Virus record (IMG/VR): IMGVR_UViG_3300009515_000025
Span: 1-24,485 of that record
DNA length: 24,485 nt
Strand: one strand, 5' to 3'
Source: a virus
In this document: one piece after another, positions 1 to 19,877 of the stretch
How positions within the stretch are numbered: the stretch's first letter is position 1
Layout of the letters: each line of letters opens with the position of its first letter
Program-made: the position numbers and the translations under genes
The notes under the pieces: model-generated
What the model saw: the letters and a program-made list of their open reading frames with translations, nothing else
Told to the model about the DNA's origin: nothing
Databases searched by the model: none

Positions 1-294
1 GGCAAGATCGCGCCGGGCGATACGGCCGCGATCGAACAAACCCTGAAATCGTTCGACACCTTGTTGGTCGATCTTTCCGAGCCGGTCGTTGCAGGCGTGC
101 ACCAGGCGTTCGACGTGCTGAGCTTCGGGCTGAGCCGCGGACTGGTGACCGGCCAGTGGTCCTCGTGGTCCAAAGAGCGTAATTCCCCACTGCCATTGCC
201 TTTCGATGGTTCCACGCAACACAGCAAGCACGTGGTCCAACGTGGTCCAAAACACATTTACATGGTCCAACGTAACACACCACACCTTGATTAA
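1..294 (+). CDS. Open frame in GC-rich left-edge segment, 5' truncated, unknown
   Basis: The frame is open from base 1 to a TGA/TAA-type stop near 294, with no start visible because the window begins inside it. The first 180 bases are about 64% GC and read as a plausible protein (motifs such as FDTLLVDLSEP and GLSRGLVTGQW). After about base 180 the composition drops and the translation becomes Gln/His/Pro-rich repeat-derived sequence, so the 3' part is probably not genuine coding sequence. I do not recognise a family. It could be the tail of a host gene at a phage-host junction, a foreign insert, or an assembly chimera. Only the composition break and the open frame are seen directly. Confidence 0.3.
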   Translation, partial: GKIAPGDTAAIEQTLKSFDTLLVDLSEPVVAGVHQAFDVLSFGLSRGLVTGQWSSWSKERNSPLPLPFDGSTQHSKHVVQRGPKHIYMVQRNTPHLD

Positions 295-400
295 CTTAGT
301 GCAGTAACAGTACCGTACTACCAACACATCACAGCTAACGCAAGTAGCTGGACCAGGAACGTGGTCCAAAAAGGCTCAAAAAAGGCCAAATGGACCACGT
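156..400. repeat. Cluster of ACGTGGTCCA repeats, direct and inverted
   Basis: Copies in direct orientation lie at 156-162 (GTGGTCC), 164-173, 230-240, 241-250, 261-270 (CATGGTCCAA variant) and 359-369. Inverted copies lie at 349-355 (TGGACCA) and 391-400 (TGGACCACGT). The copies at 231, 241 and 261 start 10 and 20 bases apart, which is helical phasing. The 359-368 and 391-400 copies form a perfect 10-base inverted repeat around a 22-base A-rich loop. This resembles iterons, a protein-loading array or transposition-type end sites. The adjacent primase-helicase makes a replication origin a reasonable guess, but this is inference. Region 295-431 has no supportable gene. Confidence 0.75.
359..400. 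terminator. Long-stem hairpin downstream of the primase-helicase stop
   Basis: ACGTGGTCCA at 359-368 pairs perfectly with TGGACCACGT at 391-400. On the minus strand the loop contains TTTGGCC, a run of T, and GAGCC, and the hairpin lies about 30 bases past the primase-helicase stop at 432. It could end the leftward transcript. The stem lacks a T-tract immediately after it on the minus strand, so it may instead be one more pair of protein-binding repeats. Confidence 0.35.
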
Positions 401-431: not shown

Positions 432-3176
432 CTATTTTGTTGGTATTGGGAAAGGCAATATTTCGCCCTTTTCTTGGATAATTTGCAAACCTACCATACC
501 ACGTATTTTTCTGCCATTGCAGTTAATTCGACCAAATTCAAGACCACTTCTTCGACAAAATTGGCGCATTTTTTTACAGAAAGAATTGAAAGTAGTACGC
601 CTGTCATCAGTCTCCGCCTGAAATTTCTCGTATGCGTCACGACTAGAAAGAAAGTCTTTTTCATTGCCAGTGACAAACAAACAGTCATCAATCCACTCCG
701 AAACTACATCTTTACTATTATCAACCATATCTTGAACCAGTGCGTCACTTTCAGACGGCACACTAAAATAACCTTGAGCCTGGACCCTGCACCATGCAGC
801 AAGAGCACGGTTAAGGATGCCAGGGAGTTCCTTTCTTATCTTGCCATTGACACCAGAAATCATTTTTTCAGTATGTTTAGTGAGGTCGAGGTCAAAGGGA
901 ACAATCAGAAGCCTTCTTTTCATGCCTTTGGAGAGATCATTCAGGAAAGGCATTTCATTATAGGTCATAATCATTTTGGCCCTATTTCTAAGTTGAAAGC
1001 CTTTTTCAAATTTGTTTTCACACCAAATGGTACCTTCGCCAGTAACTTGCTTCAAAGGGCCGGTGTCTTTAAAACATTTGGGGCTTTCTTCTTCACTGAA
1101 GTTAGCAAGCTTGCCCTCAAGGCCAGCGGCTATAAAGTTATTTTTAGAAAGATTGCTAATGGCAATGGCGGAACAATTCTTTTCGCCTATCATTTCTTGG
1201 AAGGCATTGACCAATGTAGTTTTGCCATTAGCTCCTTCACCATACAGAATAAGAACTTTATTTATAGAATATGGGCCACCATAGATGCAGTAGCCAAGAT
1301 ACTCTTCCAGTACGGTTTGCAATTGTGGTCGATTGCAAGTGACGTTTTTAAGCAATTCATCCCAGGTTGGACATACAGCAAGTGGGTCATGGTTGTAAGG
1401 TAGTTTATAAGTAAATCCAAACGCTGAATTATGGGGCAGCAGCGTTTTTTTAGATACGTCCAGAACACCATTGGCGAGATTGATAAAACCTTCGTTGGTG
1501 TTCTGGAGAAATTCGGGGGGAACTAAATTTGAAATTGATACAGCTTTGGCAAATTCTTCTAGTTCAGAATCTTTATCTGATGCAGGTTTGTAGTATTTTT
1601 CTGCGAATGCTTTCACTCGCTCACGAGTGTAAGTTTGGTAGTATCCATCTTTGAAAACAAGGGTCCTTTTTAGGCCGTCAATGTTTACGAATTTGGATTT
1701 ATTGTCAAAGAATTTGCGTAGAAGCTTTACTTCTCGTTTCATTTTCTGCTTTTTGCCCTCGAATTTGAAGGAAGTGAATCCCAAATCTATATATTCTTGC
1801 CAATTAATGCCATTGGTAGGGATTTTTGCGCCCTTTTTTGGGTGGTTGCTGTGTTGCGTAGAGGAAATTCCAGAATTCAATTCCTTTTTTGGTGCTGGGT
1901 CTTGGATTTTTTGAGGTTTTTCGACGTTTTCAGTTTTGTCAATTTTCTCATTTACCTTAGGTTTGGGAGTTGAAACGGTTTCTATGAGGGGTTCTGAAAA
2001 ATTGGAGGTATTTCCGGGGTCTTTTTCTGGCACTGTATTTTGAGGGGAGGGGTTTTTTTTGGATTGTGTTTTGGGCGTTCCTATAGTGTCTCCTGAATCC
2101 AGAAACTCGTCAACATTAAAATCGCCGATATCTTCAATTGCAGTGCTACAGTCCCATGGTGCGAGTGATATGGGGGTTCGAACCTTGCCTTTCCATTTGC
2201 AATTCCCGCACTGGCCGCCGTTCATTTGTATATCGGCGCAGGTTCGGGGGGCGTTGGTGGCAGTGTGTGCTTGCTCTAACTTTTGGTCTGTTTCCTGGGT
2301 CGTATATCCGGGGTGTTTTTTGGATATTTGGTGGGAGTATTTTTCGCGTTCGGGGGAGGGGAAGAAGGCGGTAACTTGGAGGGCAGCATACCACAATGGT
2401 TCGCTTGTTTCCCTGCCGCCTGAGAGTGCTTGCTGGTGCAGCTCTTGGCATTCTCTCATGACGTACTCTGGGTGCACTTTCTTCTCTACTAAATTTTCAG
2501 CGGTACTCTTGGGTTCTACAACTGGGACAATGAATTTGGTCCACGACCAGTCTACGACGGCATCTGAGCCATGTATCACGGTGCATTGTTTGGGTACAAC
2601 ATCGTCTGCCATTGGTGTCTTCATGGGCTTGCGATTGGCGGTGGCCGGCATTCGCAGCAATTTGCTTTGAGTCCAGCCGGAGAAATCTGCATTTCCCGCG
2701 ATGGCAGTTTCTTGGAAGCGTTTGTTTATGCGGTCGCAGAGTTCTTTGTAGTATGTGCGGTAGGTTTTTATATCGTGTGCGGAGTAGGTATCTACTTGCA
2801 GGATTAGGTGGAGGCCGTTGCCGGTGAAAATTTGTGTTATGTATTCAGGGTCTATATCTATAACATCAGACACCGCAACGACAATCATGCGTATTTCTGC
2901 TGCCATTGCCACAGCATCTTGGTGCAGGGTAATGGCATCTATGTCTATGGGTATAATGTCTGCTGTTTTATAATCGCGCTGGTGTGGTTGGCAGTGCCCC
3001 ATGGTGTAGAAGAGGTTGTAGTCTTCGTTGGGGTACTTGGCGGTAAATTTCTTGAGTATTAGATCGCTTCGTTTGGCAATGGCACTGTACTGTTTGATGG
3101 GTAGATCGTAGTAGACGTGCTTTAGTGTTACCACGCCATTTTTTGTAGTAGGCCTTAGGCCGTAAATTTGGTACAT
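432..3176 (-). CDS. PrimPol-type primase fused to SF3/D5-type helicase
   Basis: This 914-residue replication protein should make primers and unwind the phage DNA. The N-terminal primase-polymerase domain (about 50-210) shows the metal-binding IDID motif (D78, D80), GNGLH with H123, and LRMPATANRKP (174-184). C313, C323, C326 and C343 may bind zinc. A Pro/Lys/Ser-rich linker spans about 355-455. A D5_N-like stretch (563-610) precedes the SF3 AAA+ core: Walker A GEGANGKTT (646-654), acidic Walker B in FSEEE, sensor MTYNEMP with N740, and arginine-finger KRR (753-755). A C-terminal winged-helix-like tail ends it. The start at 3176 is chosen because AAGGAG lies five bases upstream; the frame stays open to 3380, but that part overlaps the promoter region. 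It is the only leftward gene in the left half. Confidence 0.9.
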   Translation of the reverse strand: MYQIYGLRPTTKNGVVTLKHVYYDLPIKQYSAIAKRSDLILKKFTAKYPNEDYNLFYTMGHCQPHQRDYKTADIIPIDIDAITLHQDAVAMAAEIRMIVVAVSDVIDIDPEYITQIFTGNGLHLILQVDTYSAHDIKTYRTYYKELCDRINKRFQETAIAGNADFSGWTQSKLLRMPATANRKPMKTPMADDVVPKQCTVIHGSDAVVDWSWTKFIVPVVEPKSTAENLVEKKVHPEYVMRECQELHQQALSGGRETSEPLWYAALQVTAFFPSPEREKYSHQISKKHPGYTTQETDQKLEQAHTATNAPRTCADIQMNGGQCGNCKWKGKVRTPISLAPWDCSTAIEDIGDFNVDEFLDSGDTIGTPKTQSKKNPSPQNTVPEKDPGNTSNFSEPLIETVSTPKPKVNEKIDKTENVEKPQKIQDPAPKKELNSGISSTQHSNHPKKGAKIPTNGINWQEYIDLGFTSFKFEGKKQKMKREVKLLRKFFDNKSKFVNIDGLKRTLVFKDGYYQTYTRERVKAFAEKYYKPASDKDSELEEFAKAVSISNLVPPEFLQNTNEGFINLANGVLDVSKKTLLPHNSAFGFTYKLPYNHDPLAVCPTWDELLKNVTCNRPQLQTVLEEYLGYCIYGGPYSINKVLILYGEGANGKTTLVNAFQEMIGEKNCSAIAISNLSKNNFIAAGLEGKLANFSEEESPKCFKDTGPLKQVTGEGTIWCENKFEKGFQLRNRAKMIMTYNEMPFLNDLSKGMKRRLLIVPFDLDLTKHTEKMISGVNGKIRKELPGILNRALAAWCRVQAQGYFSVPSESDALVQDMVDNSKDVVSEWIDDCLFVTGNEKDFLSSRDAYEKFQAETDDRRTTFNSFCKKMRQFCRRSGLEFGRINCNGRKIRGMVGLQIIQEKGEILPFPIPTK

Positions 3177-3202
3177 TGTAACTCCTTGTAAGTTTAGAAA
3201 GT

Positions 3203-3214
3203 GTACCACGGTAC
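3203..3214. promoter_or_regulatory. Palindromic GTACC-AC-GGTAC operator candidate
   Basis: The arms GTACC and GGTAC are perfect inverted repeats separated by two bases, and they overlap the candidate -10 box of the primase-helicase promoter. The same half-site recurs at 3324-3339 and 6598-6627 in control regions. A dimeric regulator binding here would block or recruit polymerase; the protein is unknown. Confidence 0.5.
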
Positions 3215-3236
3215 TTGCCATTTGCGAGGCCGTCAA
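3208..3236 (-). promoter_or_regulatory. Candidate leftward promoter for primase-helicase
   Basis: On the minus strand TTGACG (3236-3231) is followed after exactly 17 bases by TACCGT (3213-3208), which keeps the T, A and final T of a sigma70 -10 box. Transcription would begin near 3201, about 25 bases before the start codon. The -10 lies inside the near-palindrome GTACCACGGTAC at 3203-3214, a likely regulator-binding site. Confidence 0.5.
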
Positions 3237-3312
3237 GTAGAGTGGCGACGTGATTCCTTTTGTATGTATTGAAGGCCCTAGGAAAGATGGTACCTTTTCT
3301 GGGGCTTTTTGT

Positions 3313-3341
3313 TTGACTCTCCAGGTACCGCGCGGTACCCT
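3313..3341 (+). promoter_or_regulatory. Candidate rightward early promoter
   Basis: TTGACT (3313-3318), a 17-base spacer and TACCCT (3336-3341) mirror the arrangement of the leftward promoter. The transcript would start near 3348 with a leader of about 13 bases before the ATG at 3361. The palindrome at 3324-3339 covers the spacer and part of the -10. The -10 match is weak (three of six), which fits a promoter needing an activator or controlled by a repressor. Confidence 0.45.
3324..3339. promoter_or_regulatory. Perfect 16-base palindrome GGTACCGCGCGGTACC
   Basis: The sequence equals its own reverse complement over 16 bases and sits in the divergent control region, overlapping the candidate rightward promoter. 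Another GGTACC lies at 3289-3294. It looks like an operator for a dimeric DNA-binding protein. The ribbon-helix-helix-like protein at 8957-9214 is one candidate, by inference only. Confidence 0.55.
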
Positions 3342-3360
3342 CCTACTTCGGGGGCACAGA

Positions 3361-3666
3361 ATGACAAAAGACATTACCAATATAATTATTCCAAAAGCTG
3401 ATTTAATAAAAGTTTTACAAGAAGCTTACCTTGCAGGTATGCATCACTACTATAAAAATGTTTCCACAGTTTTAGATAAATCTTTCCAAAATTATTTAGC
3501 TGCCGACATGCCTCAAAAATATGCAGAGGGTGTGATGGAGGGGGCGATAGATAAAGGTCTAGAGTATATCCAGAAAAAAAAAGATTTAGAGGATAAGTTA
3601 AGGCAGCAGGAAAAAGAGAAGCAGATTAAAAAATCTGGATTCCAGATTATAAAGGACGAAGAATGA
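3361..3666 (+). CDS. Small early protein of unknown function
   Basis: This 101-residue protein is the first gene of the rightward block. The N-terminal half is mixed helical with an aromatic patch (MHHYYKNV). The C-terminal third (about 66-95) is strongly charged and helical, Lys/Glu/Gln-rich, probably a short coiled coil. I chose ATG 3361 over the longer frame from 3250 because the upstream part crosses the promoter and palindrome; the ribosome binding site is weak (a G-run at 3350-3354). It overlaps the next gene by ATGA, suggesting translational coupling. No family is recognised. Confidence 0.7.
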   Translation: MTKDITNIIIPKADLIKVLQEAYLAGMHHYYKNVSTVLDKSFQNYLAADMPQKYAEGVMEGAIDKGLEYIQKKKDLEDKLRQQEKEKQIKKSGFQIIKDEE

Positions 3667-4211: not shown

Positions 4212-4615
4212 CAACTGAATTAAAACCTTGTCCGTTTTGTGGGGGGGATGAATATTTGCGACCAATAGAAGGGCTAATTGAAAGTCGAAAATACGTTTGC
4301 TGCCCTTGTGGCGCTTACGGTCCGTTTGGCGATTGTGACATTGGAGCAATTGAGGCGTGGAACAAGCGGCATTGTATACCTTGCGATAACATTAAAAAAA
4401 CAATTATTGATACATTTAAAGAGCAAAAGAAAGAATTAAAGACAAAGAATAAATATATAGTTTTTGAGCAACAATTAGCTTCATTAAGTGAAAAAAGTCT
4501 AGCTAGACCTACCGGACCACTAGAAGAAAACTTAGCTAAACTTTGGTTCGAAATGGGAGTGCAGGCTAAAACAAAGAATTATGAATATAAAGAGGCGGCC
4601 AGTGATGAAAATTAA
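4208..4615 (+). CDS. Lar-like (restriction alleviation family) zinc-ribbon protein with C-terminal extension
   Basis: The N-terminal 55 residues match the Lar pattern: LKPCPFCGG (C8, C11), a second cysteine group C31, C32 and C34, then AIEAWNKR (47-54). Lar in Rac prophage modulates type I restriction-modification, and many phages carry small relatives, so protection from host restriction is the family-based guess. Further cysteines (C56, C59) follow. The remaining 75 residues are helical and Lys-rich, not part of the usual Lar core. The GTG at 4208 is chosen over TTG 4196 because it follows the G-run and overlaps the upstream stop. Confidence 0.65.
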   Translation: MTTELKPCPFCGGDEYLRPIEGLIESRKYVCCPCGAYGPFGDCDIGAIEAWNKRHCIPCDNIKKTIIDTFKEQKKELKTKNKYIVFEQQLASLSEKSLARPTGPLEENLAKLWFEMGVQAKTKNYEYKEAASDEN

Positions 4616-4808
4616 AGACATCCCAAACGAAATTGCAAATTTAGAGTTAGAAACTGTTACAAGTACCCTTGACAGTCTTTTAGGATCACTCCTCATAGGT
4701 CTAGCTCTAAGTTGTATTGTTGGCGCTGGCATTTTTTATTGGTTCTGGAAAAAAGAAGATCGAAAATTTGAAAAGTATTGGAATAGAGACGGACAGGGAC
4801 ACCGATGA
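4605..4808 (+). CDS. Small membrane protein (67 aa)
   Basis: ATG 4605 follows the AAGAGGCGG site and overlaps the end of the Lar-like gene. A hydrophobic segment (about 27-49, LLGSLLIGLALSCIVGAGIF) is followed by WFWKKEDRK, consistent with one membrane helix and a charged C-terminal tail on the cytoplasmic side. The amphipathic N-terminal 25 residues would be outside. The stop overlaps the next start (ATGA). It is not a recognisable holin because there is only one span and no lysin beside it; an early envelope-targeted role is possible. Confidence 0.6.
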   Translation: MKIKDIPNEIANLELETVTSTLDSLLGSLLIGLALSCIVGAGIFYWFWKKEDRKFEKYWNRDGQGHR

Positions 4809-4927
4809 GTAAGCAAGTGAGAAAATTTTTAAAGCGTACACTCTCAAGCTTGTATGCGAGTGCCGTGGCCAGGGGTGCACCTACTGATTGCCACGGCCCC
4901 GTCTCTTTTTATAAAGGAAAAATATGA
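4805..4927 (+). CDS. Possible 40-residue ORF bridging two genes
   Basis: The frame from ATG 4805 to TGA 4927 has ATGA overlaps at both ends, matching the coupled style of this block. The N-terminus is basic (MSKQVRKFLKRTL). However, its second half lies on a strong inverted repeat (4862-4897), so the DNA may be serving as a hairpin rather than as code. No family is recognised. Coding status is uncertain. Confidence 0.4.
   Translation: MSKQVRKFLKRTLSSLYASAVARGAPTDCHGPVSFYKGKI
4862..4910 (+). terminator. Candidate hairpin terminator
   Basis: GCCGTGGC (4862-4869) pairs perfectly with GCCACGGC (4890-4897) across a 20-base loop, followed by CCCGTCTCTTTTT. The T-run starts nine bases after the stem, so efficiency may be modest. 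It would split the membrane-protein genes from the helicase unit, or act as an mRNA processing or stability element. Confidence 0.45.
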
Positions 4928-5172
4928 ATTTCAAAGAATGGTACGACAATAAAAAGTACAAATACAAACGTTATGGTGACAAAATGGACGGGGATGGCAG
5001 CGAAGTTTTTCTCACTGGCACTGATATGTTAGCGGCTTATGAAGCTGGGTACAGGCAAGCTATGTATGACCAGCAAAGGAAGAAGTACAAGGATAAGGCA
5101 CAGGCAGAGCAAGAAGAAAGAACAGCGTTGTATGGAAGTGCATCTGACGAGGATAAGTTAAGTGACTTTTAA
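4924..5172 (+). CDS. Small hydrophilic protein of unknown function
   Basis: This 82-residue protein is very rich in Lys, Tyr, Asp and Glu. It begins MNFKEWYDNKKYKYK, has a central LTGTDMLAAYEAGYRQAM segment and an acidic end (ASDEDKLSDF). The central part recalls short phage proteins with an AAYEAG(Y/W) motif of unknown role; that is memory of a pattern, not a verified match. The RBS is AAAGGAA before ATG 4924. It overlaps the helicase start by 11 bases. Confidence 0.65.
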   Translation: MNFKEWYDNKKYKYKRYGDKMDGDGSEVFLTGTDMLAAYEAGYRQAMYDQQRKKYKDKAQAEQEERTALYGSASDEDKLSDF

Positions 5173-7080: not shown

Positions 7081-7289
7081 TGGAAGAAGTAAATAACAGG
7101 TATGTTGACAGTGAGCTACGGAAGATTACAGAGGTGAGAATTAAAGCAATTTTCAATGCCACTAGGAAAAACCGTCATTTTGACCTGTCTATGGTACACG
7201 ATATTTCTACAAGAATATCAATGAAAGACCCATTGACTCTACGTCAAGTGAAGTCCATAGAGCGTATTTATAATTCGGTGGTGGCATGA
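7080..7289 (+). CDS. Small basic protein of unknown function
   Basis: This 69-residue protein starts with GTG at 7080 inside the upstream stop, preceded by a GGGGGAAG ribosome site. It is helical and basic, with an SMVHDISTRISMKDPLTLRQ centre and a KSIERIYNSVVA end. The pattern of a helix followed by LTLRQVKSIERIY recalls short phage helical domains with a nucleic-acid or partner-binding look, but no family can be named. It overlaps the next gene by ATGA. Confidence 0.6.
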   Translation: MEEVNNRYVDSELRKITEVRIKAIFNATRKNRHFDLSMVHDISTRISMKDPLTLRQVKSIERIYNSVVA

Positions 7290-7432
7290 GTGATCAAGAA
7301 CATAATGAAAGGTACATGTGCGTAAGGTGTAGGACTATGCGAATATTTCGCTACTTTCACGAATGCTACTGGAAGAATAAAATGAGACTACTGTGCCAAG
7401 ATTGTTACTTGGAAGTGATGGAGAGGGCGTAA
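7286..7432 (+). CDS. 48-residue four-cysteine zinc-ribbon-like protein
   Basis: ATG 7286 overlaps the previous stop and the TAA overlaps the next ATG (TAATG). The product has CVRC (12-15) and CQDC (37-40) with an additional Cys27, a two-knuckle spacing typical of small zinc ribbons. The segment between the knuckles is aromatic and basic (RIFRYFHECYWKNK). Such mini zinc proteins in phages often bind nucleic acid or host polymerase, but that is family-level expectation only. Confidence 0.6.
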   Translation: MSDQEHNERYMCVRCRTMRIFRYFHECYWKNKMRLLCQDCYLEVMERA

Positions 7433-7662
7433 TGGAGCCAATAGCGATGCTTAAGGAAATTTTTGACAGATACGTTTCCGAGAATACCAAAAAGGTTGTT
7501 ACCAAAAACATATTGGATGGGAACTCTGAGGAACTAACAGAGTTACATATCTGTGCAATATTTGCAGACATTTTAGTTAGGGTTAAAAACATTGAGGAGT
7601 CACTATGTACAAAGCAAAAATCTACAATGACAAGCGAGACAAGTGGAACTCCTACGAAATAA
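7432..7662 (+). CDS. Small protein of unknown function
   Basis: This 76-residue product starts MEPIAMLKEIFDRYV. I take the ATG at 7432 rather than the longer frame from 7393, because it overlaps the upstream stop and avoids the coding sequence of the zinc-ribbon gene. The body is helical with HICAIFADILVRVKNIEES; the last 20 residues are Thr/Ser/Lys-rich and overlap the next gene by 58 bases in another frame. No family is recognised. Confidence 0.5.
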   Translation: MEPIAMLKEIFDRYVSENTKKVVTKNILDGNSEELTELHICAIFADILVRVKNIEESLCTKQKSTMTSETSGTPTK

Positions 7663-7811
7663 CATTAGACGTAGAGGGCAAAAAGTTCATAGCGTTTGGG
7701 GAGACCAAATCCGACGCGGTAGAGCGGCCCATACTGCAAATTGGGAAATTCATAGAGAAATTGAACAGAATAGATTTTCTGCCGGAAGAAGTAGAAGAGA
7801 GTCAGATTTAG
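7605..7811 (+). CDS. Small beta-rich protein of unknown function
   Basis: This 68-residue protein starts at ATG 7605 with a good GAGGAG site eight bases upstream. Its first half reads as beta strands (MYKAKIYNDKRDKWNSYEI and GKKFIAFGETKSDAVE); the second half is a helix with an acidic end (LPEEVEESQI). The strand-turn-strand plus helix with TKSDA resembles small phage domains with an ETKSDAVERAL-like pattern, function unknown. It overlaps the end of the previous gene. Confidence 0.6.
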   Translation: MYKAKIYNDKRDKWNSYEITLDVEGKKFIAFGETKSDAVERPILQIGKFIEKLNRIDFLPEEVEESQI

Positions 7812-7819
7812 GAGTAAGT

Positions 7820-8146
7820 ATGGAAGTGATAGTAAAAGAAAATCCAAATCATCTGGAGATGGTGGGGAAATCGTTTAACGTGACAGGTGAGAGTGAAGAT
7901 TGGTATTACCTAGATAATAATGATGTTACGGTAAATATCGAGAAAAAATATTGCGAGAAAGTGGAGGAGGAACGCGCCTTTATTCTAAGCTTAGAGTTGG
8001 AATTTTTGAACATTCACATGACTAGCTTACTAGATGTTGCAAAAAAGTGGGACAGGCCAAGCTGGCGGGAAGCGTTTTTTGTTGAGCATCTGGAAGAGGC
8101 CATGAAAAAATTAGACAAAATTAGAGAGAAGCACCCAGTGAACTAA
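7820..8146 (+). CDS. Small acidic protein of unknown function
   Basis: This 108-residue protein starts at ATG 7820 after AGGAG; the earlier in-frame start at 7643 would lie on top of the preceding gene. The N-terminus looks like an SH3-like or KOW-like beta segment (VGKSFNVTGESEDWYYLD). The C-terminal half is a long charged helix (HLEEAMKKLDKIREKH). There are no catalytic motifs. It closes the mini-gene run before an 82-base gap. Confidence 0.6.
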   Translation: MEVIVKENPNHLEMVGKSFNVTGESEDWYYLDNNDVTVNIEKKYCEKVEEERAFILSLELEFLNIHMTSLLDVAKKWDRPSWREAFFVEHLEEAMKKLDKIREKHPVN

Positions 8147-8157
8147 CGCTCACTGGG
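8134..8157 (+). terminator. Perfect 8-base-pair hairpin at gene end
   Basis: CCCAGTGA (8134-8141) pairs with TCACTGGG (8150-8157) around an eight-base loop that contains the stop codon of the 7820-8146 gene. It lacks a strong T-run, so it may be a weak terminator or an mRNA-stabilising 3' structure. The following gap to 8228 has AT-rich TATGAT (8190) and TATAAC (8204) stretches but no convincing -35, so I do not call a promoter there. Confidence 0.35.
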
Positions 8158-8228
8158 ATTCCTAGTGTCGGGTAATATGCCTGCTGGCGTATGATCCTAC
8201 TAGTATAACACAGAAACAAGGAGCAAGA

Positions 8229-8942
8229 ATGAAAGAAATGGTAGAAACAGGAAGTAAAGAGGTAGCAGCACCAATTGCCGACTTTGGTTTTGCCGATGAC
8301 CTCACGGCCGATGACCTGCAAATAGGTAGAATTGCAGTGGCACAGGCAATGTCGGAGAGTACTAAGAATGAGGTGACTAAGATTGGGGACATCTACAACA
8401 CAGCCACGTTGGAAGTGCTGGGGTCCAAGGATAAAAAACCCGTGGAGTTTATACCCGTGTATCTCAAGAAATATTGGGTACATAAGGATGGGGACAACTA
8501 CCTAGGCACAACTGAGTTTATCCACAAAGATCAATTCCCATTTGAGGAGGGGCCTAAGAAAAACTATGTTACATACAGTTTCTTTGTGCTATTGACAGCA
8601 GAGATGAAAGATGGGGTTGCAATGCCGTACCAGCTAGTGCTACAGTCTAGTGGGTTATCGGCAGCTAGGAAGATAAACGCATTCGCAGCTAAGCTAAAAC
8701 GAATGAAGAAAGCACCTTGGGCCAGAACCTACCTGCTTACAGCGGTACACTCTACTAAGGAAAAATACTCTTGGTGGAAGCCAGATGTGACAGTGGGCAG
8801 GGATACTTCAGCTAGTGAAATAGCAGACAGTGTGGATTGGGCACAGCAATTGAAAGGACAAGAACATTTAATTAAGCAGAGTATACAAGATACAGCTAAG
8901 GAAACACAACCGGAATATGTAAGTGAAGAGACAGATTTCTAA
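8229..8942 (+). CDS. Probable single-stranded-DNA-binding or replication accessory protein
   Basis: This 237-residue protein has an AAGGAG site before ATG 8229. It contains KIGDIYNTATLEVLGSKDKK (52-71) and FIPVYLKKYWVHKDG, a pattern I associate with phage proteins encoded beside recombination and replication genes. It ends in an acidic tail closing with an aromatic residue (SEETDF), as in T7 gp2.5-type and bacterial SSBs, where the tail docks polymerase and primase. Position just before the polymerase fits. No OB-fold was verified, so function is an inference. Confidence 0.45.
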   Translation: MKEMVETGSKEVAAPIADFGFADDLTADDLQIGRIAVAQAMSESTKNEVTKIGDIYNTATLEVLGSKDKKPVEFIPVYLKKYWVHKDGDNYLGTTEFIHKDQFPFEEGPKKNYVTYSFFVLLTAEMKDGVAMPYQLVLQSSGLSAARKINAFAAKLKRMKKAPWARTYLLTAVHSTKEKYSWWKPDVTVGRDTSASEIADSVDWAQQLKGQEHLIKQSIQDTAKETQPEYVSEETDF

Positions 8943-8956
8943 ATAAGGAGCTTATC

Positions 8957-9214
8957 ATGTCTACAACAACAACTGCGACCAAAACGGTTGCAAAAACCGC
9001 AACAAAAACTGATTCCAAGAAAACCAACGGGCGTGTCTACACTTATGTAGAGCCCAAAGTAAAAAAGTGGTTAACTGACCAAGTGAAGGCCGCTCAAAAA
9101 AACGGTGAGCGTACTGCCAGTGTGTCTAAGCTTGTAAGTGCCGCGATTCAAGAGAAGTACAATCGTGCCAAGTCTGCGGTAAACCGCAAGACCAAGACTG
9201 TTAAAGCAGCATAA
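8957..9214 (+). CDS. Ribbon-helix-helix-like DNA-binding protein
   Basis: This 85-residue, very basic protein has an N-terminal Thr/Lys-rich tail (1-24). RVYTYVEPKVKKWLTDQVKA (26-45) and a second helix (56-71, SVSKLVSAAIQEKYNR) follow in the strand-helix-helix order of CopG/Arc-type domains. The C-terminus is Lys-rich. A strong AAGGAG site and the intrinsic terminator just downstream suggest high expression. It could be the regulator that binds the GTACC palindromes, or an abundant nucleoid-like DNA-coating protein; nothing in the sequence decides. Confidence 0.55.
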   Translation: MSTTTTATKTVAKTATKTDSKKTNGRVYTYVEPKVKKWLTDQVKAAQKNGERTASVSKLVSAAIQEKYNRAKSAVNRKTKTVKAA

Positions 9215-12489: not shown

Positions 12490-14946
12490 TTAAAACCCTA
12501 GAAACTTTGTAAACCCTGATAGTGAGCCTGGGGGTGTCAAATCTCCAGACTGTTCATTAGGTACCGCTTGGCGTAGAAGTTTTTGATGCCTTTCTGCGCT
12601 AGGTGGTCCATAAATACTATCTAAGTATTTATTCGGGTTACTTGGCTTACCTTTGAATGGTGTCCTTTTTTCTTCTTCACGTAATTTTGGGTCTTCCCAT
12701 GGGCTGAAATCGAGTCTACTGTGAATTTTCCTTCCTGCTTCCGCTACAGGTTCTTTCAACAATGCCTCAAGTCCTGGCCGCACTATCACTCCTTGGCGTA
12801 GTAGGGATTCAGGAACCTTTTTACTAGGAATTTTAAAATATCTTGCGGGTGCTGTAATTGCCCTTTCTAACTTATGCCCTTTTCGTAACCCTTTAACTAC
12901 CCCTTGTGGGGTACCAGCGGCACCTATGACGTTCGCTGCAAATCGTGCAACTGTCTCTCTACCTGGCGCTACACTAGCAGAAAAATCTTTCACAGTTGGA
13001 TTTACTGTAGGTTGTAAGGCCTCCCCTAGAGCTTTCTTGGTAGGGCCAACTGCTTTATGGGCAAATAACATTTCTAGGTTATCTATGAACCCATCTTCAA
13101 ATGGGCCAATTAAATTTTTAAGTTCTCTTTCATCATCTATTCTGGCCATCAAGTCTCTGAACTGTAGGATATGGTCACTATCTCGCATCATTCTATTGTA
13201 TGCAGAGGCATCAAAATCAAGCTTCCCTTTCTTCCCTACTGTAAATAAGTTAGATAGAAATAAGTCTGTGTCTACTTGATCTCTAAAAGTTTTCAATAGG
13301 GCTCCATACTCTTCATGAACACCTTTCTTTACAACTCCATCTGGTGTTTGCACAACAACGTTACTCAGTGCTTTTTTAACAGAGTCATCTATTGACCAGT
13401 ATACTTCTTTGGCAATGGCATTTGCCCGCTTCATGCTTGGGGATAACTCTTTTTGGTTAGCTGCCATAAACGACTTCATAACGTCTAGGCCCTGTTGAAT
13501 ATCTTTATAGTCACTAATTGGTGCTGTGCTACCTCTGGTAACAGACTTAAATTTCTCTTTACCATTCTTATCTTTTGCTATTTTTTCTAACCCTGTTTTA
13601 GGATCTATAATATGTTCACCTTTTTTATTTATAGCGAGAACTGCCTCTTTAGAGTCGAAGGCATCTTTTTTTATCTGCTCTAAATGGTTAAGAAGATCAT
13701 TTTCAACGGTAGACCAATTGGCCTTTTCTAGTTGTTCCTCTCCTAAACCTAAAGCATTTTCCCCAAGCCCTCTAGCAGCAGACATTTTTTTATTGGTTAA
13801 CCTGTCTATATGACTTTGAATTAAATGTTGTGGCTCCTCTATTGAGAAAGGAATTCTACTATATCTCTTTCTAAAAACCCCTAAGGCCTTACCAGCTTCC
13901 TTCCTTTTCTTCCCAACATAGTCAATAGCATCTTCCGCGAGCTTCCCCGCAAACCCTAATTCATTTGGCGCGATCTTTTGTTGGATTTTATCATAGTTTT
14001 TTACATACACTCTAAAAGCTTCTGGTTGCCTATTTACAACAAAGGCACCTATTGATGGTGCTGCTCTCCTTGTAACACCCCTGTATGCTTTCTCTAGCAC
14101 TCCCCTTTGCTGGTTTCTTGCCTCTTCCATTAATACTTTTCTACGACGTGTGCCCATTACATTGTCTGGAAAGCGGCGTAGTGCTTTCTCTGCTGCCTCA
14201 TTGCCAATGATTTTCTTTAGAACTTGTTTTGATGCTCCCGTTCCAGCAAGCCATGGTGCAACTGTGCCAATTGCGGCAGATGTCCCTATTTCCCCTAGTG
14301 ACATACCCGCATCCGTCTCTTCATCTTTTGCAGCATCCCCTGTAGACTTTGGTATTGCGCCAAAATATCTTCCTAACCCTTGCCTTATCCCTTCGCCTGC
14401 TGCTTCAACTGCCCCACTTGCACCCATAGCTGCTAGCATGGAGCCAGGACCAGTGAATAATGAGGCTGCGGCCGCTGTTGCCCCTGCCGCTGCACTGGCA
14501 GATCCAATAAGAATATCTGCGGCAGAGTCGGTCATATCGTAGATTACTTCAGGTAGATCAATACCTTCAGGTTGGGTAAAGTCGTTGGGGTCCATGACAC
14601 TAAATTTTTTATCGCCTTTGGCCCCTAGCTTCTTTATAAGTACACGGTCATTTTCAGCCCGTATGTCATATCTTTTTCTAACTTCTCCAGTCTTGGGGTC
14701 TTTGATGCCTTTAAATTTATCTAGACCTCTTAAATAAGCGGCGGCATTTTTTGCAGATGTACCATGCTTTCTGGTTAGGTTTCTTAGAAGGAACCGATCC
14801 CCGAAGCTAACATCTTCGTGCATGGATTCATCAATACGGAATGAAGGGACTTCCCCGAACTTAAGCCGTATTCTATCATCAGGCTGCAATTTAATCTCAC
14901 CAAATTTAATCCCAATTCTTTCATCTGTCGTTAAATCTAAAGGCAT
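12490..14946 (-). CDS. Large internal virion / DNA-ejection protein
   Basis: This 818-residue protein ends the leftward module. Two near-identical repeats open it (DERIGIKFGE at 8-17 and DDRIRLKFGE at 23-32). An Ala/Gly-rich segment at about 139-190 (containing GSASAAAGATAAAASLF) could insert in a membrane. The remainder is long and helical, very Lys/Glu-rich, with a Pro/Lys-rich end. Size, last position after adaptor and smaller internal proteins, and composition fit the ejection proteins of T7 (gp15/gp16) and P22. No transglycosylase motif was found. RBS AGGGA. Confidence 0.55.
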   Translation of the reverse strand: MPLDLTTDERIGIKFGEIKLQPDDRIRLKFGEVPSFRIDESMHEDVSFGDRFLLRNLTRKHGTSAKNAAAYLRGLDKFKGIKDPKTGEVRKRYDIRAENDRVLIKKLGAKGDKKFSVMDPNDFTQPEGIDLPEVIYDMTDSAADILIGSASAAAGATAAAASLFTGPGSMLAAMGASGAVEAAGEGIRQGLGRYFGAIPKSTGDAAKDEETDAGMSLGEIGTSAAIGTVAPWLAGTGASKQVLKKIIGNEAAEKALRRFPDNVMGTRRRKVLMEEARNQQRGVLEKAYRGVTRRAAPSIGAFVVNRQPEAFRVYVKNYDKIQQKIAPNELGFAGKLAEDAIDYVGKKRKEAGKALGVFRKRYSRIPFSIEEPQHLIQSHIDRLTNKKMSAARGLGENALGLGEEQLEKANWSTVENDLLNHLEQIKKDAFDSKEAVLAINKKGEHIIDPKTGLEKIAKDKNGKEKFKSVTRGSTAPISDYKDIQQGLDVMKSFMAANQKELSPSMKRANAIAKEVYWSIDDSVKKALSNVVVQTPDGVVKKGVHEEYGALLKTFRDQVDTDLFLSNLFTVGKKGKLDFDASAYNRMMRDSDHILQFRDLMARIDDERELKNLIGPFEDGFIDNLEMLFAHKAVGPTKKALGEALQPTVNPTVKDFSASVAPGRETVARFAANVIGAAGTPQGVVKGLRKGHKLERAITAPARYFKIPSKKVPESLLRQGVIVRPGLEALLKEPVAEAGRKIHSRLDFSPWEDPKLREEEKRTPFKGKPSNPNKYLDSIYGPPSAERHQKLLRQAVPNEQSGDLTPPGSLSGFTKFLGF

Positions 14947-18011: not shown

Positions 18012-18722
18012 TTAACTCCAAATAGTATCGAGGTGCATGTCCTCATAAAAACTTAAATCTTTTTCTATCTCGGTGTCATTGTCAATGACCATATTTGTGA
18101 GGGTAGAAACCATCTGCTGTCTTTGTTGTGCTTCCCTCTGTATTGCCACCTGGTAATTTGGATGGCTCTCTTTCTCATATATGCGCATTTTGGCAAACTG
18201 TATGACAAAGGAAACAAATTCTGGTATATCACAAATATCTGTATCCGCCGCTAATCTATTGGCATTGCGCAGATAAAAAATGGTAAGTCCACCTGTTATA
18301 CTTGTTCGTGGGCTTGGGCTTACTTCTATCTGAGTCTTGGTGGACGCATCCGTATTTAATAGCATATACCTGTAATTAGCAGATGTTGAGAAATTATCAG
18401 TGATTACTTGATCCAAAAATTGATCTCTAAACCTAATCCTCTGAAGAGGATAAACTAAGGTATTCTCTTTATATATAATGCCACGAATTTTATTCGCATA
18501 AATATCTGTTGGAAGTGAATAAAGTTTTGTTCCGGCCACTAGATCAATAGTATCTTTACGAAGAAAGTAATCCTCATAAATAGTATGAATTTCTGCCTCT
18601 GCCTCATCGATTCCTTCGTTTACATAATCAAGAAGTTCACTTGGTTTTACAAATTCTTCTTGCTCGGTGGCCATATCCCGATTTATTTTTGTTTTTATTT
18701 CTAGGTAAGTCCAATATTTCAT
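18012..18722 (-). CDS. Adaptor / head-tail connector-like protein
   Basis: This 236-residue protein has a helical start (MKYWTYLEIKTKINRDM and LLDYVNEGIDEAEAEIHT), then a beta section with TKLYSLPTDIYANKIRGI, and a C-terminal helix of Glu/Gln-rich composition. The helix bundle followed by the Y.LP.D.....I.GI motif is typical of podovirus head-to-tail adaptor proteins. Its gene lies directly before the internal protein genes and after tail-type genes, as expected. The ATG overlaps the stop of the peptidase gene. Confidence 0.6.
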   Translation of the reverse strand: MKYWTYLEIKTKINRDMATEQEEFVKPSELLDYVNEGIDEAEAEIHTIYEDYFLRKDTIDLVAGTKLYSLPTDIYANKIRGIIYKENTLVYPLQRIRFRDQFLDQVITDNFSTSANYRYMLLNTDASTKTQIEVSPSPRTSITGGLTIFYLRNANRLAADTDICDIPEFVSFVIQFAKMRIYEKESHPNYQVAIQREAQQRQQMVSTLTNMVIDNDTEIEKDLSFYEDMHLDTIWS

Positions 18723-19306
18723 AACATGCCCTTTGAAGAATCCAATACTATACGCCAGTTAGCAGAATCTTCTAATAAAGAATCAGATGTCCATACCATT
18801 CTACCAAACACCTCTGCTTTTTTAAATCTCTGATCGGGGAATAACTTACGGTATGCCTCAAATATAAGCTCAAAACAGTACAGTTTTTGATCCCCTTCCT
18901 TAAACTGAAAGTCATAAGCGGTATCTTTATATAAAAGGGCCTGCATTGCCACATTTTTCATCATGGCATCGTCTGCGAATGTTGGCTCAATTATAACTAT
19001 TCTATCCTTGGAGGTTAGAAAAGTTACAAGATCAGTCTTTATCACTCCATCGGCAACAGACTCCATTATATATTTGATCCCGCCACCACCAAGATAGATT
19101 GCGCTATGTTTTAGCTCAGAGGGATTAATGATATTGGATAGCTCGCCTCTTGTTTTAGATAAAAATATTTGCCCAGGTTTAATCATGTCCCGCCATGAGT
19201 AATAATGTTTTCCAGTAATTCTCTTATGGGTGTACGGCCAATGGAGATCACCAATCCAATTAATGAGTGGTTGTGATTTTTCTACAATTTTATCCAACAA
19301 TCCCAT
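18719..19306 (-). CDS. Permuted papain-like (YiiX/NlpC-P60 superfamily) cysteine peptidase
   Basis: This 195-residue protein reads PGQIFLSKTRGELS (44-57), LKHSAIYLG (65-73, H67), YIMESVADG (79-87, E82) and KLYCFELIFEAYRKL (141-155, C144, E146). In the YiiX-type circularly permuted papain family the histidine precedes the cysteine, as here. Such enzymes cleave amide bonds in peptidoglycan peptides, lipids or proteins. Inside the virion block it could be a tail-carried wall hydrolase or a maturation protease. ATG 19306 is preferred to TTG 19327. Confidence 0.7.
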   Translation of the reverse strand: MGLLDKIVEKSQPLINWIGDLHWPYTHKRITGKHYYSWRDMIKPGQIFLSKTRGELSNIINPSELKHSAIYLGGGGIKYIMESVADGVIKTDLVTFLTSKDRIVIIEPTFADDAMMKNVAMQALLYKDTAYDFQFKEGDQKLYCFELIFEAYRKLFPDQRFKKAEVFGRMVWTSDSLLEDSANWRIVLDSSKGML

Positions 19307-19307
19307 A

Positions 19308-19877
19308 CTACGCTCTGTACATTTCAAAAGCTATGGATGCTTTATGTTTATATCCAGCATCGTGGTTTAATATTAGTTTCATTTCATTTGTGTGATAAGT
19401 GGCATTATAGTTAAGTCGCTTGGGTCTTCTTCCGTCTGCTACAAACCCATTTAAGGCTGGTATTAGTTTTAGATTTAGGCAGCAAATAAATTCTTTTGAC
19501 CCTGCCGGTGCCGCTACCTGAGGTACCCCTATGCAGTACATATAAATATTATTGGAAGGTACGGAACCTTGATGAAAGGAACCTTGTACTAATTCATAGT
19601 CAAAAGTAGGCTCCCATAAGATTACAGTTTTCACACAGTTTAAGTCTGCATCTGCTTGATTGGATGACTCTGTTGTTTCTAATAAGTCATTGTAACATTT
19701 AAGTGTAGCAAAGCTTAAATCAGAACCCTTATCATCCTTGTTATATAAAGAGTTTAATTGTGATGTCTCAAAAGATATTCCTTGCTTATGATAGTTCCAA
19801 CCAATCTCACTAAACTTATTGATAGGTTGTACTATATTACCATATGCATCTCTCTCGGGTATTAATATGCCACCCAT
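19308..19877 (-). CDS. Virion-module protein of unknown function
   Basis: This 189-residue protein is beta-rich, with KTVILWEPTFDYELVQGSF (83-101), cysteine-containing segments (FICCLNLKL) and a C-terminal FEMYRA. No signal peptide. It is encoded two bases after the 396-residue gene with an AAGGAA site and two bases before the peptidase ATG. Structural or chaperone roles are both possible; I do not recognise a family. Confidence 0.55.
   Translation of the reverse strand: MGGILIPERDAYGNIVQPINKFSEIGWNYHKQGISFETSQLNSLYNKDDKGSDLSFATLKCYNDLLETTESSNQADADLNCVKTVILWEPTFDYELVQGSFHQGSVPSNNIYMYCIGVPQVAAPAGSKEFICCLNLKLIPALNGFVADGRRPKRLNYNATYHTNEMKLILNHDAGYKHKASIAFEMYRA

Follow-up and report, generated by a model that had tools for sequence, protein, structure and literature searches.

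The window analyzed here is an entire IMG/VR virus record (24,485 bp, in which no end repeats were detected) and is possibly a fragment. The open reading frame at its left end has a GC3 of 0.82 over bases 1-153, compared with 0.30-0.45 in the phage genes, and matches twin-arginine-signal-like proteins of ~190 amino acids that are encoded in Pseudomonadales upstream of a GMC-type oxidoreductase. The best match improved from E 3.9e-6 to E 3.4e-8 (per genome) once the SSW codons were added to the query, and a profile built from 20 homologs gave E 7e-18, with a match that extends through the WSSW codons to base 168. Among 398 Pseudomonadota genomes, matches to this frame were confined to Pseudomonadales, save for one weak match. 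The Pseudomonadales homology continues through ...GLVTGQWSSW, and likeness to host proteins stops at base 168-171. Based on GC3 and homology, bases 1-168 (+ strand) are assigned to the 3' portion of a host gene that is interrupted. Because the homology runs to ~168, the window appears to begin in host DNA, with the phage starting at ~169 within the host gene. The left end is probably a prophage end, with the host/phage junction placed within a few bases of 168/169 (166-175), where the homology ends. The record holds neither the remaining part of the host gene nor the other prophage end. A reading of the host gene as a dGTPase, based on weak matches, was replaced by that of the Pseudomonadales TAT-like protein, and assignment of the host to Bdellovibrionota found no support.

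This host-gene start went unnoticed in the preliminary description of the sequence, which treated the DNA as non-coding from position 156. Bases 156-172 (AGTGGTCCTCGTGGTCC) are coding and read TGG TCC TCG TGG (Trp-Ser-Ser-Trp). Since the host homology persists through base 168, the two apparent repeat copies at 156-172 are host codons and lie outside the array.

On the phage side of the junction, a scan of the window identified exact copies of ACGTGGTCCA at 230-239, 240-249 and 359-368 (+ strand) and at 391-400 (- strand). Copies with one mismatch occur at 163-172 (within the host codons) and 260-269, both on the + strand, and an inverted copy with two mismatches occurs at 349-358. The array is real and well above chance: when at most one mismatch is allowed, the window contains 10 matches versus 0.6 expected, a number reached by 0 of 100 shuffles, and the commonest 9-mer of bases 169-440 occurs six times, compared with a maximum of four in ~80 control windows of the same length elsewhere in the record. 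Six direct and two inverted copies had been reported from position 156; the array stands, but its proper extent is 230-400 and it comprises four direct sites (starting at 230, 240, 260 and 359) and two inverted sites (349 and 391). The phasing at 10 and 20 bases described earlier is correct for the sites at 230, 240 and 260, as is the perfect inverted pair, formed by the sites at 359 and 391 (11 of 11 bases when the flanking base is counted). The sites fall into two sets, one at 230-269 (+ strand; 230, 240 and 260) and one at 349-400 (mixed strands; 349, 359 and 391), separated by a 79-bp spacer (270-348). The AT content of the spacer is 0.56 versus 0.58 for the genome, so it is not AT-rich. 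We found no paper that names the ACGTGGTCCA motif, blastn of the array against phages gave no significant match, and the tandem 20-mer is absent from 392 Pseudomonadales genomes.

The preliminary description also pointed to similar arrays at the ends of transposable phages, in which case the repeats would bind the transposase of a Mu-like element at its end. The prophage does interrupt a protein-coding gene of the host midway, with the repeats close to the prophage end. However, transposases bind the very ends of an element, whereas here ~60 bp separate the junction from the first site on the phage side. No rve transposase was identified in 14 relatives of this phage, and the phage has its own replication genes (PolA, PrimPol and SNF2). 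The parallel with transposable phages thus finds no support, and we regard binding by a transposase as extremely unlikely.

The only gene adjacent to the array encodes a primase/SF3-D5 helicase (PrimPol; 432-3380, - strand, with a start at 3380 or inside) with D5_N and DUF5906 domains. The gene reads towards the array, which is therefore 3' of it: the stop codon (at 432) is ~32 bp from the nearest iteron, and the sites at 230-400 span 30-200 bp 3' of the gene. The top PDB match of the protein is the SaPI5 primase-helicase (E 2e-12 by sequence, E 4e-18 by fold). AlphaFold2 predicts a C-terminal winged helix (480-707, - strand; wing at ~492-536), with pLDDT values of 70-80 in the helices and 55-58 in the wing, and we propose this domain as the reader of the iterons. 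By sequence and predicted fold, the protein is a helicase of the SaPI Rep/D5 family, with a predicted C-terminal winged helix as in that group. The window also encodes PolA, a SNF2 helicase and a virion-type gene block. Other genes include one for a protein of the Restriction alleviation protein Lar family (PF14354; 4196-4615) and, among the virion genes and beside a SU10-type adaptor, one for a permuted papain-like amidase (Peptidase_C92; 18719-19327).

Repeats with inverted pairs are typical of operators, and the same record encodes a small basic, ribbon-helix-helix-like protein (8957-9214) of the kind that might act as a regulator at such sites. This protein has no family match, and the array is located behind, not in front of, the sole adjacent gene. 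In addition, analogs of the array covary with helicases (see below). An operator array is consequently a very unlikely reading.

The arrangement of the array resembles that of the origins of SaPI and other PICI elements. The C-terminal domain of SaPI helicases reads iterons located directly downstream of their own gene (PMC7581432), and an AT-rich region flanked by two sets of iterons is a constant feature of PICI origins (PMC6092414). As in these systems (rep or pri-rep plus ori; e.g., SaPI1, SaPIbov1, SaPI5 and EcCICFT073), two sets of short iterons are found here directly 3' of a primase-helicase gene, and the C-terminal winged helix of the SaPI5 primase-helicase has its predicted counterpart in the window protein. 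Unlike the SaPI/PICI origins, the array has iterons of mixed orientation and a spacer that is not AT-rich, and it is located at a prophage end. Also unlike SaPI/PICI, the element encodes PolA, a SNF2 helicase and virion proteins of its own, and thus is not a small satellite lacking a full virion gene set. Given these genes, and relatives of 40-52 kb with a terminase, we conclude that the element probably works like, but is not, a PICI. A second likeness is to Cch2 of SCCmec, a helicase of the D5 family that uses its C-terminal domain to bind direct repeats immediately downstream of its own gene (PMC7581432). The SCCmec system differs in having three short AAGTG iterons and a polymerase-type primase.

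The phage family was found via matches to PolA and SNF2, and the relatives compared here came through the SNF2 helicase; a PrimPol-pattern search returned no close relatives. In most relatives the gene order is PrimPol (- strand), small genes, and then SNF2, PolA and a VRR-NUC-like gene (+ strand). Beyond PrimPol, the relatives checked continue with a terminase or other genes, where the window has host DNA. Arrays 3' of PrimPol were identified in four relatives, each with a lineage-specific word: TGTCCCAAT (seven copies; L010/L142), CAGTTAACC (seven; L013), AGAACAAGA (seven; L014) and GTGACAGGT (six; L017). In these four, the sets flank spacers of 93-103 bp that are 68-88% AT, so that L142, L013, L014 and L017, in contrast to the window, show the AT-rich region between sets that is expected of a SaPI/PICI-type origin. 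The array in L024 is suggestive. No significant array was found 3' of PrimPol in L015, L016 and L026, nor in L034 and L038, relatives in which PrimPol is co-directional. An array in this position is thus common in the family, though not seen in every member, and the motif varies. The expectation that relatives would carry the same array at the same place therefore holds for the location in four cases, but not for the exact motif. A match in L033 lies in coding DNA of a high-GC contig and was judged to be due to chance. L014 also encodes a short tyrosine recombinase (167 amino acids, without an arm domain; 4588-5091) downstream of PrimPol, at the place equivalent to the window junction.

Cumulative GC skew of the window has its minimum at 1308 and its maximum at 12662. 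The minimum thus lies near the left end. The third positions of the coding strand of the PrimPol gene (432-3215) are C-rich (GC3 skew of -0.37), in contrast to most other genes in the window. Both observations fit a replication fork departing from the left end, although this is weak evidence, as gene direction and the record ends both confound the skew.

Outside the phage family, paired exact copies of ACGTGGTCCA separated by 0-25 bases occur at 36 IMG/VR loci, compared with ~3 expected by our estimate. Most of these loci are Lactobacillaceae-type prophages or satellites of 13.7-17 kb or 46-66 kb, a host group inferred from integrase matches (Latilactobacillus and other lactic-acid bacteria). 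The typical block, 20-50 bp past the stop of a PrimPol-VapE operon, consists of two groups of three sites, separated by ~33 bp that contain a GTTGATATATCAAC palindrome. Because the motif itself served to find most of these loci, the helicase-side array was partly selected for. The likeness of these prophage or cf-PICI-like origins (L113, L118, L127 and others) to the window lies in the motif itself, in its main orientation relative to the helicase gene and in the three-plus-three layout. They differ in that the VapE-type helicase is on a separate polypeptide, the spacer is a 33-bp palindrome and a second, inverted copy is found beside the integrase. Such an inverted ACGTGGTCCA block often occurs right after the integrase gene (L005, 10218-10300; L111, 760-870; L125, 6640-6760; L113, 150-260), even where the iterons of the element's own helicase are quite different (L005, L111 and L125).

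In the Lactobacillaceae group, a different helicase is accompanied by a different array. L005 has GGGGTAGA in seven copies, and L111, whose helicase has the same domain pair as the window protein (D5_N and DUF5906), has AATATCCA in 12 copies; in L125, with an L005-type helicase, just the end of such an array falls within the stretch read. Four elements found through another copy of the motif (L107, L109, L115 and L141) have variant arrays behind VapE (TGTGCCACG, TGTACCACG and TGTTCCACG), and the iteron words of the L113 and L115 types are TGGACCACG and TGTTCCACG, respectively. Six alignment columns separate the VapE proteins of the variant-iteron elements L107, L115 and L141 from 16 of 16 standard proteins, and all six fall within the final 13 residues of 464 (Fisher p 4e-6), whereas 44 of the 46 columns that are polymorphic within the standard group are outside these 13 residues. 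As proof, this covariation is weakened by sequence relatedness and by the closeness of the gene end to the array: because the VapE C-terminus adjoins the array, one recombination tract could shift both without functional coupling. At the C-terminus, the window helicase shows marginal similarity to VapE (E 0.002, 23%), so the identity of the motif across phyla may be coincidence. In L109 the VapE frame is apparently broken after residue 226 (7112-8497; a frameshift or sequencing error), with the iteron array intact. The densest array seen is that of L127 (1505-1914), with ~25 loose motif sites in two blocks 3' of VapE, counted with an 8-mer core, one mismatch allowed and overlaps included; its VapE is more distant (54% identity).

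With the junction at ~168, only ~60 bp from the window array, the possibility has to be weighed that the repeats are arm-type sites of a tyrosine integrase. The array would then be one attP arm, 60-230 bp inside the prophage end, with the integrase at the other end. The short direct repeats near a prophage junction are indeed reminiscent of lambda-type arm sites and of the ten-base repeats P1-P6 described in Oenococcus phages (PMC8074189). Integrase attP arms in L062-L069 likewise consist of short direct repeats with 9-12-bp spacing, and in Lactobacillaceae elements ACGTGGTCCA is also found directly after the integrase gene. This explanation was favored initially, given that the sole viral match of the tandem 20-mer lies 36 bp after an integrase whose relatives have arm pairs. 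It was demoted after the spaced pattern revealed helicase-linked arrays and the integrase-side arrays proved to vary independently of the integrase. Integrases that are 98-99% identical (L005, L109, L113, L125 and L134) have beside them arrays that differ in motif and copy number, yet other repeat pairs (AGTCAGCCAAAAGGACAGCCAA; AAGCCAATTGGTAAGCCAA) are constant there. Thus, in the Lactobacillaceae elements the repeat motif is not constant with integrase identity, and the integrase-side array is not the arm set of that integrase. Elsewhere ACGTGGTCCA tracks the helicase rather than the integrase. No tyrosine recombinase was identified in the window (a record without its right end) and one was found in only 1 of 14 relatives. 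Relatives also have arrays in the equivalent position with no host junction beside them. We consider integrase arm sites, the main alternative to an origin, unlikely.

The array is probably the iteron part of a SaPI/PICI-type phage replication origin. The earlier suggestion of an origin, made from an iteron-like array beside a PrimPol-helicase, gains support from the position of the array 3' of the helicase gene, the analogous arrays of relatives, the identical motif 3' of PrimPol-VapE in Lactobacillaceae, helicase-iteron covariation, the SaPI5 primase-helicase match and the skew minimum at 1308. Counted against it are the spacer that is not AT-rich, the relatives that have no array and the motifs that differ between relatives. 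Origin firing would await excision of the prophage. The PrimPol-helicase, probably in the form of two hexamers, could then use its C-terminal winged helix to bind both iteron sets, melt the DNA in or beside them and load itself. The primase part would begin synthesis, to be continued by the phage PolA.

Two further possibilities appear quite unlikely: a fused attachment-origin locus, in which the iterons serve both the helicase and an integrase complex, or exchange of the ten-base iteron between proteobacterial phages and Lactobacillaceae satellites. If the locus were fused, integration itself would split or reshape the origin and so shut it off, with the iterons ~60 bp from the junction. Most likely, the layout is one already known from small phage parasites of bacteria, and what is new is its presence in an unstudied phage lineage. 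A probable origin of this type behind the PrimPol-helicase of PolA-carrying phages, with an iteron that is different in each relative, points to a modular initiator-origin system of wider occurrence. It offers a direct test of how the C-terminal wing of the helicase chooses its ten-base word, for which the Lactobacillaceae set represents a natural specificity series.
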